Source: Sphingorhabdus sp. SMR4y
GTDB taxonomy: Bacteria; Pseudomonadota; Alphaproteobacteria; Sphingomonadales; Sphingomonadaceae
Direction: 5' to 3'
Assembly (NCBI RefSeq): GCF_002218195.1
Contig: NZ_CP022336.1
Location: 620,001 to 684,000 of the forward strand
Length of the DNA: 64,000 bases
Shown: one piece after another, positions 52,282 through 57,851 of the stretch
Numbering within the stretch: the first letter of the stretch is position 1
Layout: each line of letters starts with the position of its first letter
Program-made: the position numbers and the translations under genes
The notes under the pieces: model-generated
What the model saw: the letters and a program-made list of their open reading frames with translations, nothing else
Told to the model about the DNA's origin: nothing
The model's database searches: none

Positions 52282-53415
52282 ATGACGCAAATGGAAGATT
52301 TGGAAGCATGTGGAGCGGATAGCAGGCTCTATCTGAAACCTGTTGGACTGGTTGACAGTCCGCAATGGCATCCTGAAAAAAACCAACGATTAAACAATAG
52401 TTTAGCATGGTTTTCTCAGGTTGAATATCTGATTATCGAAGCAGATAAACCGAACCGGCGCGGGCTCGTCAATATCACGCAGTGGCCGGAATGGTCGAAA
52501 GCGCTTCCAGAGCATCTGTCGCAACGCGCGGAGACAGTATTCGCCAATCTCACTCGCCAGCACCCGGCGCTGCAATGCGGTGACCGGACTATCCGCTTTG
52601 ACCAGCCGCATGTCATGGGCATCCTCAATATCACACCCGACAGTTTCTCCGACGGTGGCAGACATCAGGATGATCCGGAAAAGGCCGCCGAAGCGGGCCT
52701 CGCTATGACGGTGGGCGGTGCTTCGATCCTCGACATTGGCGGTGAAAGCACCCGGCCCGGCGCCAGTCCGGTTTGGGAAGGTGATGAAATCAAACGGGTG
52801 GTGCCGGTCATCGAAAGACTGGCCCATTGTGGCGCAGTCCTGTCGGTCGACACGCGCAAGGCGGCGGTAATGGAAGCGTCGGTCGCGGCGGGCGCGCATC
52901 TGATCAACGATGTCTCGGCGCTGCTGCATGACAAAAGATCGCTGGAGGTGGCCGGAGTGTCCGGCCTGCCGGTGGTGCTGATGCACGCGCCTTCGAGCGG
53001 CAAAAACCCCCACGAGGGTAGCGGCTATGGCAATATCGTCACCGATACGCTCGACTGGCTGGAACAGCGGGTCGCCGACGTGGTGGCTGCGGGCTTTGAG
53101 CGCGAAAAAATAATCATCGATCCGGGGCTCGGCTTCGGCAAGTCGCTGGCTGACAATCTGGCGCTGATGAACAATATCGCGATGTTTCACGCGCTCGGCC
53201 AGCCGCTGCTGATCGGCGCCAGCCGCAAGCGGATGATCGGCGCGCTGTCCCGCGAAGCCCCGGTGGACCAGCGGCTCGGCGGCTCGATCGCTTTCGCGCA
53301 TCACGCGATACAGCAGGGCGCACAGATCGTCCGGGTACATGATGTACCGGAAACGGTACAGGCTATGCAGATATGGCGCGGGATGCGCGATGCAGGGGTG
53401 ACGGCGGCGCTCTGA
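52282..53415 (+). CDS. folP: Dihydropteroate synthase
   Basis: FolP joins p-aminobenzoate to dihydropterin pyrophosphate and is the sulfonamide target. The TIM-barrel domain (about 110-370) has GILNITPDSFSDGG, GGESTRPGA, SVDTRKAAV, IIDPGLGFGKS and the C-terminal IVRVHDV. The 377-residue length includes an N-terminal extension of about 105 residues with no motif I recognise. It follows ccrM by 13 bp and may share its transcript. Confidence 0.92.
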   Translation: MTQMEDLEACGADSRLYLKPVGLVDSPQWHPEKNQRLNNSLAWFSQVEYLIIEADKPNRRGLVNITQWPEWSKALPEHLSQRAETVFANLTRQHPALQCGDRTIRFDQPHVMGILNITPDSFSDGGRHQDDPEKAAEAGLAMTVGGASILDIGGESTRPGASPVWEGDEIKRVVPVIERLAHCGAVLSVDTRKAAVMEASVAAGAHLINDVSALLHDKRSLEVAGVSGLPVVLMHAPSSGKNPHEGSGYGNIVTDTLDWLEQRVADVVAAGFEREKIIIDPGLGFGKSLADNLALMNNIAMFHALGQPLLIGASRKRMIGALSREAPVDQRLGGSIAFAHHAIQQGAQIVRVHDVPETVQAMQIWRGMRDAGVTAAL

Positions 53416-53491: not shown

Positions 53492-55027
53492 TTGAAAGAT
53501 CGCGGCGATCGAGCCATTCGGGAGATTGTCATTGTCGGTGGCGGCACGGCAGGCTGGATGACGGCGGCGGCTCTATCCCACAGGCTGGGAAACAGTGGTC
53601 CCGATATCCGCCTGATAGAATCGGCGGAGATCGGGACCGTGGGCGTCGGCGAGGCAACGCTGCCGCAGATCCGGGATTTCAACCGGATGCTCGGGATCGA
53701 CGAAGCGGAACTGATGGCGCGAACCAGCGCGACCATAAAATTGGGCATTGAGTTTTGCGACTGGGGCAGGGAGGGCGATTCCTATATTCATCCTTTCGGC
53801 GTGCACGGCGAACCGATCGGACCTGTTGATTTTCATCATTACTGGGTCAGGCAAAAAGGGGAAGGCAAGGCGGAAGAATTCGGCCGTTACAGTCTCGCGA
53901 TCGAAGCGGCTCGGCTTCATAATTTCAGTCTGCCGCCCGACGTGCCGGCCTCGCTGTTCGAGGCTTATTCCTATGCGTTTCAGTTTGATGCCAGTCTTTA
54001 TGCCGCTTTCCTGGCGGAATATTCAGCAGCGCGCGGAACCGAGCGGATTGAGGGGAAGGTTGTCGCGGTAGGGCGCGATGGCGAGACTGGTTTCATCCGG
54101 TCGGTGACGCTGGCATCCGGGGAACAGATAGCGGGCGATCTGTTCGTCGACTGCTCGGGATTTCGCGGTCTGCTGATCGAGCAGGAACTGGCGACCGGCT
54201 TCGCGGACTGGAGCGCGTATCTGCCGTGCAATCGTGCCTTTGCCGTTCCCTGCGAGATTGGCGATCCGGTTGGCCCCTTCACCCGGTCGACTGCCCGATC
54301 TGCGGGCTGGCAGTGGCGCATTCCATTGCAACACAGACTTGGCAACGGTCATGTCTATTGTGACCGGTATATCAGCGATCAGGATGCGCTCGACGATCTG
54401 ATGGAGAATCTCGAGGGCGAGCCGATCGCCGAACCGAAGCAATTGTTCTTCAAAACCGGCAAGCGCGAGAAATTATGGAACCGGAATTGTGTGGCGATCG
54501 GGCTGTCCGGCGGTTTTCTGGAGCCGCTGGAGTCGACCAGTATCGACTTGATCCAAAGCGGAATCCTGAACCTGATCGCGCTGTTCCCGGAAAAGCAGTG
54601 CGCCGCTTCCGACGTCGAGGAATATAATCGCGTGATGGATCTCGAATATGATCGCGTACGTGATTTCCTGATGCTGCATTATGTACTCAACCAGCGCGAC
54701 GAGCCGTTCTGGCGGGATATGCGGGAAATGGTCTGGCCGGACAGTCTGAGCGAAAAGGTCGAAGCGTTCAAGCGACGGGGGCTGGTTCCGCAATATGATC
54801 ACGGCCTGTTTCAGCCGGCGAGTTGGCTATCCGTGTTTATCGGCCAGAATCTCCTGCCGGAAACCTGTGATCCACGGGTCGACAGCATGGCCGCTGGCGA
54901 TCGTGCGAGCGAGCTGGAGCGTATCAGGACAGCGATCGACGCCAGCGCCGGCAGAATGGGCAAGCATCTCGCGTTTATCGAGACATATCGGGCCCGCTTT
55001 TCCGGTTCCCGGAGCGACGCGCGATGA
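53492..55027 (+). CDS. Flavin-dependent halogenase (tryptophan halogenase family)
   Basis: A 511-residue FADH2-dependent halogenase-fold protein. All signature residues are present: GGGTAGWM (16-23), GVGEATLP, the catalytic Lys83 in ATIKLGIEF, WQWRIP (273-278) that prevents mono-oxygenase behaviour, and Glu347 in LEPLESTSI. It should form HOCl or HOBr from halide, O2 and FADH2; the substrate is not evident and may not be free tryptophan. It is coupled by an ATGA overlap to a degenerate homologue. Confidence 0.88.
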   Translation: MKDRGDRAIREIVIVGGGTAGWMTAAALSHRLGNSGPDIRLIESAEIGTVGVGEATLPQIRDFNRMLGIDEAELMARTSATIKLGIEFCDWGREGDSYIHPFGVHGEPIGPVDFHHYWVRQKGEGKAEEFGRYSLAIEAARLHNFSLPPDVPASLFEAYSYAFQFDASLYAAFLAEYSAARGTERIEGKVVAVGRDGETGFIRSVTLASGEQIAGDLFVDCSGFRGLLIEQELATGFADWSAYLPCNRAFAVPCEIGDPVGPFTRSTARSAGWQWRIPLQHRLGNGHVYCDRYISDQDALDDLMENLEGEPIAEPKQLFFKTGKREKLWNRNCVAIGLSGGFLEPLESTSIDLIQSGILNLIALFPEKQCAASDVEEYNRVMDLEYDRVRDFLMLHYVLNQRDEPFWRDMREMVWPDSLSEKVEAFKRRGLVPQYDHGLFQPASWLSVFIGQNLLPETCDPRVDSMAAGDRASELERIRTAIDASAGRMGKHLAFIETYRARFSGSRSDAR

Positions 55028-56481
55028 GCGGTGGTGAGCAGCCGTTGAGGCGGATTGCCATATTCGGCAAAAGCCATGAACTCTGGCCGGTCGCGGCTTT
55101 GCTCGAACTCGAATTGCCACCGGATATCACGCTGGTGCTGGTCGAAGATACGCGCCCGGTCGAACCGGCGGCGGTGACCGTCCGCCTTGATGATCCGCTG
55201 TTGTTAAGGCTCGGGATCAATGGTGAGGACTTGCAAAAGACGAGCAGCGCCGTTTTTGCTCTGGGATGCGAATTGCGGGACTGGAAAGATGGCAGCAGCA
55301 GCTTTTTCCTGACCGGTTCCGGGAGCCTGCCTGCGGTTGATGATGTGGCCATTCACCAGATCATGTTGCGGGCTGCGGAACTCAATGACCAGCGAGATCG
55401 ACTTGCCTATCTCTATCAGCCCTTTCGTCTGCCAGCCCGTGCGGCGGCAGCCGGAAAATTTGCCTTTCAATCGCCGGACCCGCGGTCGCCGCTGAGCATG
55501 TTGCGTCCGACCGTCCAGATTGATCGCGCCGAATATGCCGAACTGTTCAGGCAGAGAACGAAGTCGCGGCGGACGGAGATTGTCAAGGCGAGCCCAAAAT
55601 TTGCTTTCCCGTCATCAGACGGCGGGGCGATCGATCGGATCGCACTCGACAACGGTGCTGCGATAAAGGCCGATTTCCATATCGATATGTCAGGCGAAGC
55701 CAGCGGTTTGGTAACAGATTTTCCCCGCCCGGACTGGCACTCGATTGCCGGTAAACTGCCTTTCGACCGATTGCTCTCCGGCACGCAAACGGGCGTGCCG
55801 TCAGCAGCCGAAAGACATGTTGTTGCTCGGGCGATCAGGGGGGGATTGATGATCAGCACTCCGCTGCGCGAACGATCGACCGTGCAGCTCCTCTGCCTAT
55901 CCGGCCATTTGTCCGCGGATGAATGGCGGGCGCTTGTCGGGAGCGAGGCGCAGGAGATCCGGCTTGATCCGGGATATGTCGACCAGGCCTGGACTGGCAA
56001 TATGGTGCGACTGGGCAGCGCTTCCGCCAGCCTTGGACCGTTTTTATCCGCCGACACGACGATATTGCACCGGCAGGCGGTCATTCTGGCAAATCATTTG
56101 CCAGCCCGGCTGGACATGACGGTCGAAGCCCGCGAATATAACCGGCGACACCTGGCTGCGGTGGAACATGTGCGCGATTTTACGCTGCTGCCTTTCGCAC
56201 TCAACCGCCGGACCGATTTGCCCTGGTCGGGAATTGAGAAGCAGAGGATGCCGGAAAATCTGCGCAGAAGAATTGACCAGTTTCGTAGTCGCGGCCGGTT
56301 GGTCGCGTTCGAAGATGAAATATTCGACGAACAGAGCTGGATCGATCTGATGATGGGCTTTGGTATAGTACCCGACCGGTTCGATCCGATGGCGCAAACG
56401 CTCGATATGGCAGCAATGCCCCGGCGGTTGAAAAACCTCACCAGGGCCTTTGATCGGGCTCTAGCGGAAATGCCGTTATAG
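55024..56481 (+). CDS. Degenerate halogenase-fold protein (pseudo-halogenase)
   Basis: A 485-residue protein that aligns along its length with the upstream halogenase but has lost each signature: the FAD loop is FGKSHELW instead of GGGTAGW, the catalytic Lys is Ala79 (SAVFALGCEL), WxWxIP is replaced by GLMISTP, and the Glu is replaced by Leu (SLGPFLSAD). The C-terminal region RDFTLLPFALNRRTDLPW keeps family residues. It is probably a non-catalytic partner or an enzyme with a changed activity. Alignment by eye. Confidence 0.7.
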   Translation: MSGGEQPLRRIAIFGKSHELWPVAALLELELPPDITLVLVEDTRPVEPAAVTVRLDDPLLLRLGINGEDLQKTSSAVFALGCELRDWKDGSSSFFLTGSGSLPAVDDVAIHQIMLRAAELNDQRDRLAYLYQPFRLPARAAAAGKFAFQSPDPRSPLSMLRPTVQIDRAEYAELFRQRTKSRRTEIVKASPKFAFPSSDGGAIDRIALDNGAAIKADFHIDMSGEASGLVTDFPRPDWHSIAGKLPFDRLLSGTQTGVPSAAERHVVARAIRGGLMISTPLRERSTVQLLCLSGHLSADEWRALVGSEAQEIRLDPGYVDQAWTGNMVRLGSASASLGPFLSADTTILHRQAVILANHLPARLDMTVEAREYNRRHLAAVEHVRDFTLLPFALNRRTDLPWSGIEKQRMPENLRRRIDQFRSRGRLVAFEDEIFDEQSWIDLMMGFGIVPDRFDPMAQTLDMAAMPRRLKNLTRAFDRALAEMPL

Positions 56482-56534: not shown

Positions 56535-57776
56535 CTAGTCCGCCAGCTCTACCTGCCGCACGTCATAGCCGGACTTGTTGAGATCGGCGATCAGGGCTTC
56601 GAGCTGCTCGCGGTCCTTGGCTTCGCATTCGATGTCGGTAATCAGGCCCTTGGCCGGCAGGTTGGTGAACACCCGCTGGTGATAGACCTCGATGATATTG
56701 ACATCATGCTCGGCAAATTGCTTGACCACATTATAAAGCGCACCGGGCTGGTCACGGAGATGCAGGCGGAGACGGGCGAGGCGACCCGAGCGGGCGAGAT
56801 CGCGCAGCAGGACATTGGCCAGCAGACGCGTGTCGATATTGCCGCCGCACAGGACCAGGCCGACTTTTTCGCCGCTGAATTTTTCCTTGTTGGCGAGCAG
56901 CGCGGCAAGACCGGCCGCGCCGGCGCCTTCGACCACAGTCTTCTCGATCTGCAGCAGCAGGCTGACCGCGCCTTCCAGCTGCGCTTCGCTGACCAGCAAG
57001 ATCTCGTCGACATATTTCTGGATGATCGCCGCGGTAAATTCAGAGGGATTGCGCACGGCGATGCCCTCGGCCAGCGTGTCGCCGCCGGCTGTCACCGTCT
57101 GGCCGGTCAACTTGCCGTACATGCTGGGGTAGAGCGCGGCCTGCACGCCGGTCATCTTGATATCCGGATTGAGGGCGCGGGCTGCGGTTGCCATGCCGGA
57201 AAATAATCCGCCGCCGCCGATCGGGATGATCAGCCGGTCGAGATCGGGAATGGCCTCGAGCATTTCAATTGCCACGGTTCCTTGCCCCGCCGCGACATGC
57301 GGATCGTCAAAGGCGTGGATATAGGTGAGGCCCCGCTGGTCTGCGAGGAGCATGGCATGGGCATAGGCCTCGTCATAATTGCCGCCAAAAATGACGATCT
57401 CGGCGCCATGTCCACGGGTCTGCTCGACTTTCACCATCGGCGTCGTGCTCGGCATGACGATGGTCGCCGGGATGGCGAGTTTTTTGGCGTTATAGGCGAG
57501 CCCCTGGGCATGATTGCCGGCGGAAGCGGCGATGACACCGGCCTTGCGCTTGCTTTCATCCATCAGCAGCAGGGCGTTCAGCGCGCCGCGCTCCTTATAG
57601 GCAGCGGTGAATTGCAAATTCTCGAACTTCAGGAAGACTTCCGCGCCGCTCAGTTCGGACAGGGTAATGCTCTTCAAAGTCGGCGTGTGGACGACGCGGT
57701 CTTTGATCCGGTCGTGGGCGGCTTTTACATCTTCATAGTCGAAGGAGGGGAGAGCGGGCTTTTGCAAATCATTCAT
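56535..57776 (-). CDS. ilvA: Threonine ammonia-lyase (biosynthetic/catabolic)
   Basis: A 413-residue PLP enzyme that makes 2-oxobutanoate from Thr. The PLP Lys61 lies in FTAAYKERGA, the phosphate-binding loop is PIGGGGLFSG, and the ACT-like domain is at the C-terminus (about 335-413, RLRLHLRDQPGALYNVVKQF in part). One ACT-type domain and this length match the short form, which is less clearly tied to Ile synthesis. ATG 57776 (MNDLQKPALPSF) is preferred. Confidence 0.9.
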   Translation of the reverse strand: MNDLQKPALPSFDYEDVKAAHDRIKDRVVHTPTLKSITLSELSGAEVFLKFENLQFTAAYKERGALNALLLMDESKRKAGVIAASAGNHAQGLAYNAKKLAIPATIVMPSTTPMVKVEQTRGHGAEIVIFGGNYDEAYAHAMLLADQRGLTYIHAFDDPHVAAGQGTVAIEMLEAIPDLDRLIIPIGGGGLFSGMATAARALNPDIKMTGVQAALYPSMYGKLTGQTVTAGGDTLAEGIAVRNPSEFTAAIIQKYVDEILLVSEAQLEGAVSLLLQIEKTVVEGAGAAGLAALLANKEKFSGEKVGLVLCGGNIDTRLLANVLLRDLARSGRLARLRLHLRDQPGALYNVVKQFAEHDVNIIEVYHQRVFTNLPAKGLITDIECEAKDREQLEALIADLNKSGYDVRQVELAD

Positions 57777-57851
57777 ATCGCCTGTGCCCCTAACGCATCT
57801 GGTCATCGAGGGAAACAATGATTATGGCCGTGCAACAGCTTAGGGGATATT

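Follow-up and report, generated by a model that had tools for sequence, protein, structure and literature searches.

An intact and a degenerate halogenase gene overlap by four bases

The window analyzed here, a stretch of 64,000 nucleotides of Sphingorhabdus sp. SMR4y (NZ_CP022336.1, positions 620,001 to 684,000), contains two adjacent genes, designated A and B, in which the start codon of B shares bases with the stop codon of A (Table 1). Translation of B is probably coupled to that of A at this site. The two products could be aligned nearly end to end (23% identity, 114/499, E 3e-31), and an initial reading made from the sequence alone was thus right about both the overlap and the homology throughout. 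Across the 3.48-Mb genome, PF04820 is matched over its full length by A and B alone; two further matches are confined to the first 76 and 61 positions of the profile. The pair is flanked at 52282-53415 and 56535-57818 by what we take from the sequence to be folP and ilvA.

Table 1. Features of the A-B locus (positions within the 64,000-nucleotide window) and their occurrence in 80 clade members or their 80 partners.
Feature	Position	Strand	Residues	Description
Gene A	53492-55027	+	511 aa	TTG start; flavin-dependent halogenase, PF04820, BrvH/Xcc4156-like
A, FAD loop GGGTAGW	53537..53557	+	16-22	FAD loop present in 80/80 clade members
A, catalytic Lys83	53738..53740	+	83	Lys in 80/80 clade members
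A, WQWRIP	54308..54325	+	273-278	WxWxIP-type motif in 80/80 clade members
A, Glu347	54530..54532	+	347	Glu in 80/80 clade members
A, substrate loop	54776..54808	+	429-439	Aligned to BrvH substrate-loop "region 2" (434-444); includes Y435 and G438
ATGA overlap	55024..55027	+		ATG of B shares bases with TGA of A
Gene B	55024-56481	+	485 aa	ATG start; degenerate halogenase homologue (pseudo-halogenase)
B, GKSHELW	55066..55086	+		Replaces FAD loop (IFGKSHELW); no GxGxxG in the window's B
B, Ala79	55258..55260	+	79	Replaces catalytic Lys; Lys in 0/80 partners
B, GLMISTP (GLMISTPL)	55843..55863	+		Replaces WxWxIP; motif in 0/80 partners
B, Leu341	56044..56046	+	341	Replaces Glu347; Glu in 6/80 partners, none within the B clade
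B, RGRLVAFEDEI	56290..56322	+	423-433	Loop equivalent to A 429-439

The A protein matched the PF04820 profile over positions 1-457 of 458 with 592.6 bits and carries all of the family signatures (IVGGGTAGW, Lys83, GWQWRIPL, and GGFLEPLES with Glu347), the full set of hallmarks that the sequence-only reading had ascribed to it. By these signatures it is a flavin-dependent halogenase of PF04820 with predicted halogenating activity. Among solved structures, A is closest to BrvH (6frl), a Pseudoalteromonas halogenase (9luq), and Xcc4156 (6y1w), and its AlphaFold2 model had a pLDDT of 90.4. The same three structures are the closest to B, for which AlphaFold2 predicted a full halogenase fold (pLDDT 90.2, pTM 0.91). 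B belongs to the same family, with 197.3 bits over profile positions 2-456 against a cut-off of 21, and the profile search returned no match to any Pfam family beside PF04820. Assignment of B to another family, a result that the sequence-only reading had named as weighing against it, was rejected on the grounds that, PF04820 aside, even the top Pfam or NCBIfam match fell far under any cut-off.

Alignment to the clade orthologues bore out the replacements in B that had been proposed at the outset, namely Ala for the catalytic Lys, GLMISTP for the tryptophan motif, Leu for Glu, and the missing FAD loop. All of the B-clade orthologues that were compared lack the Lys, WxWxIP, and Glu, so that the losses are conserved. 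Judged by its sequence, B is unable to perform the chemistry of hypohalous acid and Lys.

A degenerate partner follows the first halogenase throughout the clade

A profile built from eight B sequences was run on 397 sampled genomes of the family to which the window belongs (Sphingomonadaceae), and a clear score gap was seen between the B-type proteins (299-835 bits, 17 genomes) and the rest (≤260). The top scores of the A profile, 818-1071, were found in 16 genomes, all among these 17; the seventeenth (G413) has its A in two frames. In other arrays, the position directly after the first intact halogenase is taken by a degenerate homologue that has diverged further. We therefore refer to the degenerate homologues collectively as partners. 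Profile A4, made from 27 first halogenases, splits these (≥790 bits) from other intact halogenases (≤770). With the best 3 to 5 candidates scored per genome, scores above 780 bits were obtained at no fewer than 73 places in at least 68 of the 397 family genomes, and these clade member counts are thus lower bounds. Sampling 289 genomes of the class brought in two from another family, both with the pair; among 259 genomes of a phylum sample no clade member from outside the class was found, the best outside match (753.9 bits) lying below 780. The two loci from the other family (f51, same class; L229 and L230, genomes G591 and G686) each show a run of A, a degenerate homologue, and two intact halogenases, and the arrangement is hence not limited to the family of the window.

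The resulting set of 80 pairs comprises the 73 family places, the two from the class sample, four from further genomes of the genus, and one Novosphingobium contig. In all 80, the gene after A is a degenerate halogenase-like frame, and in 68 of the pairs the two genes share exactly 4 bases, the spacing in the remaining pairs ranging from -11 to +10. This count is partly circular, in that 27 of these loci had gone into the profile and another 15 were already known with partners; the other 38 (L193-L230) were new at testing, and a partner was present in 38/38 of these previously unseen loci. As a control, we examined the 112 intact halogenases other than A found in the fetched stretches: for none does the next gene encode a degenerate homologue, for 41 it encodes an intact halogenase, and 71 have no halogenase after them (3 of the 71 lie at a stretch edge). 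The 80/80 pairing against 0/112 controls rules out chance neighbors. The search for the same pair in other sphingomonads, proposed as a check in the sequence-only reading, has thus extended the pairing well beyond close sphingomonads.

Within the genus the picture is patchier. B was found in 8/32 genomes including that of the window (five at 59-100% identity, three at 36-38%) and was missing from 24/32. Its absence or frameshift in close relatives had been put forward as evidence against a functional pair; absence was indeed observed, whereas the frame was open in each of the eight B-bearing genomes. We located folP in 29/32 genus genomes, with A beside it in 5/29; A was not found beside folP in the other 24, in two of which ilvA lies inside the short flank of folP. 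Two genomes have an interrupted A next to an open B: a metagenome bin that is 82% complete (G012) has an in-frame TAG in A (L037, 3699-5210), and G413, 66% complete, has A split in two frames on a 4.1-kb contig (L054, 3-1504). These interruptions may be assembly errors or real losses, and an interrupted A with an open B is not predicted for an obligate pair, unless the interruptions are assembly errors.

Purifying selection and co-inheritance

Selection was assessed using NG86 and codon-model ω values, all of which are approximate because synonymous distances are near saturation: the codon model gave ω of 0.212 for B (bootstrap range 0.153-0.267 for the window versus G019), 0.128 for A, and 0.088 for folP, and a second comparison set gave 0.193 for B versus 0.056 for A. 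The B frames have stayed fully open over synonymous distances that approach or exceed 1, and B is under purifying selection. Pseudogene status was ruled out by the ω value, the openness of the frame, and its conservation; the claim that B is not a pseudogene, along with the dN/dS check proposed for it, came through this analysis intact.

A tree of 134 proteins placed the first halogenases in one clade (41 rows, SH-aLRT 99) and split the 93 intact rows from the degenerate rows by a branch with a support of 100; in a 37-row tree, 14 partners fell together on one side of a branch, again with a support of 100. Because both trees are of the "quick" kind and have long branches, a single origin of the partners is favored, short of proof. 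When trees of the 80 A proteins and their 80 partners were compared, the patristic distances were strongly correlated (Mantel r 0.912, 0/999 permutations as high), 48/77 splits were common to both, and 33 well-supported splits were shared (of 44 and 43). The partners diverge ~1.8 times faster than A. Such mirrored trees report joint descent and not contact, being expected from shared inheritance alone. The best reading of these data is that A and the pseudo-halogenase form an ancient, co-inherited pair.

Conserved residues and the substrate loop

The distribution of invariant residues differs between the two proteins. In B (20 rows), 23/41 invariant residues lie in the C-terminal third (323-485, a share of 0.34 of the length; binomial P 0.0026), versus 39/118 for A (27 rows), as length predicts (P 0.76). 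Among 22 diverse partner rows only five residues are invariant and 15 nearly so. Nine positions (L57, R61, M75, D374, D383, R388, Y435, G438, and R462) are ≥90% fixed in A-type proteins and ≤25% in other halogenases. Two of them, Y435 and G438, fall in the stretch aligned to BrvH residues 434-444, assigned as substrate-binding region 2 in the crystallography paper (PMC7336383). Position 438 is Gly in 80/80 A-type proteins and Glu in 92/112 other halogenases; Glu is found there in 39/80 partners, that of the window included. The equivalent partner loop retains an Arg (R423) in 74/80 and a Gly (G424) in 77/80. The pattern at position 438 and the kept loop Arg and Gly suggest, and do no more than suggest, a substrate site common to A and its partner.

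The partners are not uniform. At the Lys83 column they carry Arg (41), Ser (11), Gly (10), Ala (8), or other residues (10). A GxGxxG/A pattern near the N-terminus is retained in 54/80, and the loss of cofactor binding is therefore not general; many partners may still bind a cofactor. Partners with Arg at the Lys site, many with GxGxxG/A, include those of L151 (5210-6625) and L155 (3455-4912), and may be functionally distinct from the B of the window. Shortened partners of 337-416 aa were also found, six in one subgroup and one at L227, from which it follows that part of the fold is dispensable in those partners. Those of the subgroup, at L133-L138 (337-396 aa), score just 90-156 bits, and still come after a halogenase with a 4-base overlap.

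Genomic surroundings of the pair

One or two further intact halogenases occur in the fetched stretch for 57/80 pairs. A TonB receptor lies near at least 32/80 pairs; the search employed one receptor query and flanks of 3-5 kb on each side for many loci, and absence of a receptor thus carries little weight. Three loci (L040 1092-17755 from G031, L041, and L042) exhibit runs of four PF04820 genes, comprising A, a degenerate B, and two intact genes C and D, that adjoin a TonB receptor, GH3 genes, and a Cupin_8 gene (full Pfam naming for L040). The window's pair resembles the A-B part of such runs without the remainder, and is one of 23/80 stretches with the pair and no further intact halogenase. 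For 17 of these 23 stand-alone pairs, more than 7 kb on each side are free of any other intact halogenase or receptor. That A and B persist as a pair at loci lacking C, D, and the receptor is, in our view, the strongest genomic clue that they form a single unit.

Proposed function of the pair

The reading that we favor, and regard as reasonably probable, is that A and B are one enzyme system consisting of an active halogenase and a pseudo-halogenase that have been co-inherited since the origin of the clade and act as a heteromer. Halogenases of the family use reduced FAD, oxygen, and a halide to form hypohalous acid, which moves to the substrate site where the Lys acts (PMC8269204, PMC7336383). 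In our proposal, coupled translation would provide equimolar A and B, which would bind each other by the surface through which halogenases of the same fold homodimerize, B taking the place of one subunit in the usual dimer. A would produce hypohalous acid and then halogenate, while B, released from FAD chemistry, would supply or shape the contact to the substrate (or to a carrier or receptor) by way of its conserved C-terminal half and loop; the substrate might be large. A stable A-B heterodimer with substrate binding by B would make the system analogous to ketosynthase/chain-length factor pairs, in which an inactive homologue shapes the active one. BrvH eluted as a dimer, and its crystal dimer is like those of PrnA and RebH (PMC5945002). 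Xcc4156 likewise forms a crystal dimer and is possibly monomeric in solution (PMC7336383), and such a monomer counts against the heteromer, as do the interrupted A genes, the shortened partners, and the GxGxxG/A pattern kept in 54/80 partners. Co-inheritance and coupling also fit with two proteins of the same pathway that do not touch.

That last point leaves room for B as a substrate adaptor or chaperone without a lasting complex with A, holding or delivering a peptide, protein, or glycan-linked aromatic in the same pathway. Conservation of the C-terminal third and the loop in B would suit this role; the whole fold has nevertheless been kept, and because the fold dimerizes in the family its retention suggests use of the dimer surface, although this is no test. 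We consider the adaptor unlikely, yet a contender. Purifying selection on B would equally be expected if B were an enzyme with another activity, a neofunctionalized flavoprotein or other, acting before or after A, and the partners with GxGxxG/A or with Arg at the Lys site may include some that bind a dinucleotide. The loop of the window's B (GKSHEL) has no GxGxxG, however, the few invariant and nearly invariant positions fall below what a common new active site should leave, and partners can be as short as 337-416 aa, all of which makes another activity improbable. We hold it very improbable that B is a regulator of A, for example an inhibitor that blocks hypohalite production until substrate arrives: coupled translation would suit a fixed ratio, and pseudoenzymes elsewhere serve as allosteric activators or inhibitors through heterodimers (PMC10211241), but the data fit activation just as well. 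A decaying duplicate retained by chance beside A would explain the long branches, the higher ω of B than of A in both sets, and the shortened versions in one subgroup; it is in the main refuted by ω values well below 1, by open frames at synonymous distances of about 1 or more, and by the pairing in the clade against none in the controls, and we give it almost no credence.

The pair of halogenase and pseudo-halogenase can be extended to a bolder reading, which we offer tentatively as a possibility: the whole environmental clade, with many members beside TonB receptors, would consist of obligate heterodimers in which the pseudo-halogenase forms part of the substrate site. The Gly at position 438 of every A, against Glu in about half of the partners, is in line with a site formed by the partner. 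If the pair is obligate, single-protein assays would miss the function; BrvH/Xcc4156-like halogenases may appear weak on small indoles because they were tested with neither the partner nor the true, large substrate present. The substrate could then be sought by co-expressing the two proteins, and addition of B would serve halogenase engineers as a control. An inactive sister fixed across at least 28 genera, in a series from full-length down to 337 aa, would also offer a view of evolution from enzyme to subunit.

Comparison with known systems

BrvH, Xcc4156, and the Pseudoalteromonas L11 halogenase (PDB 6frl, 6y1w, and 9luq) make up the indole-brominating branch of PF04820. They have been studied as single active enzymes, and BrvH is weak on indole, which is thought not to be its natural substrate (PMC5945002), with no mention in the accessible parts of the reports of an inactive partner for BrvH (PMC5945002) or Xcc4156 (PMC7336383). 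A second halogenase gene upstream of that for BrvH is described there as 42.7% identical (PMC5945002), in contrast to the 23% between A and B. Searches of an open-access collection that leaves out bioRxiv and the majority of subscription journals gave no account of a pseudo-halogenase partner shared by a whole clade of the BrvH-like branch.

PltD, from the gene cluster for pyoluteorin, is reported to lack the cofactor motif and to be required for formation of that product. It is entered in a review as "Not clear if FHal" (PMC6864650), and resembles B in being halogenase-like, questionable in activity, and located next to active halogenases. PltD differs in belonging to a secondary-metabolite cluster of the carrier-protein type, and a fixed pairing with one halogenase clade is seen for B. 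In type II polyketide synthases, the ketosynthase and chain-length factor are adjacent homologues, one without catalytic residues, that form a working heterodimer (PMC13311259); fold and chemistry are unrelated to those of the halogenases, and the heterodimer is solved there and proposed for A and B.

The same paper names the ketosynthase/chain-length factor pair as the model for Ams8-Ams9 of the armeniaspirol cluster, a close parallel in print. A heterodimer is predicted for these two (ipTM 0.86 vs 0.77 and 0.73 for the homodimers; PMC13311259, 2026). The paper describes Ams8 as essential even though its catalytic Lys is replaced (Asn90) and it no longer binds FAD. An active halogenase (Ams9) stands beside an inactive homologue (Ams8), as A does beside B. 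The sequence-only reading had suggested that a partner-assisted heterodimer would be new for this enzyme class. This holds in part: the pairing of a halogenase with an inactive homologue has already been put forward in print, as a prediction, for Ams8-Ams9 in another branch, whereas the clade-wide BrvH-like pair is what lacks an open-access description. Ams8-Ams9 are PltA-type proteins of a carrier-protein pathway in one cluster (PMC13311259), and the likeness of Ams8 to B is one of description. The A-B pairs, unlike Ams8-Ams9, belong to the BrvH/Xcc4156-like branch, extend across a whole clade, and in many cases lie beside TonB receptors.
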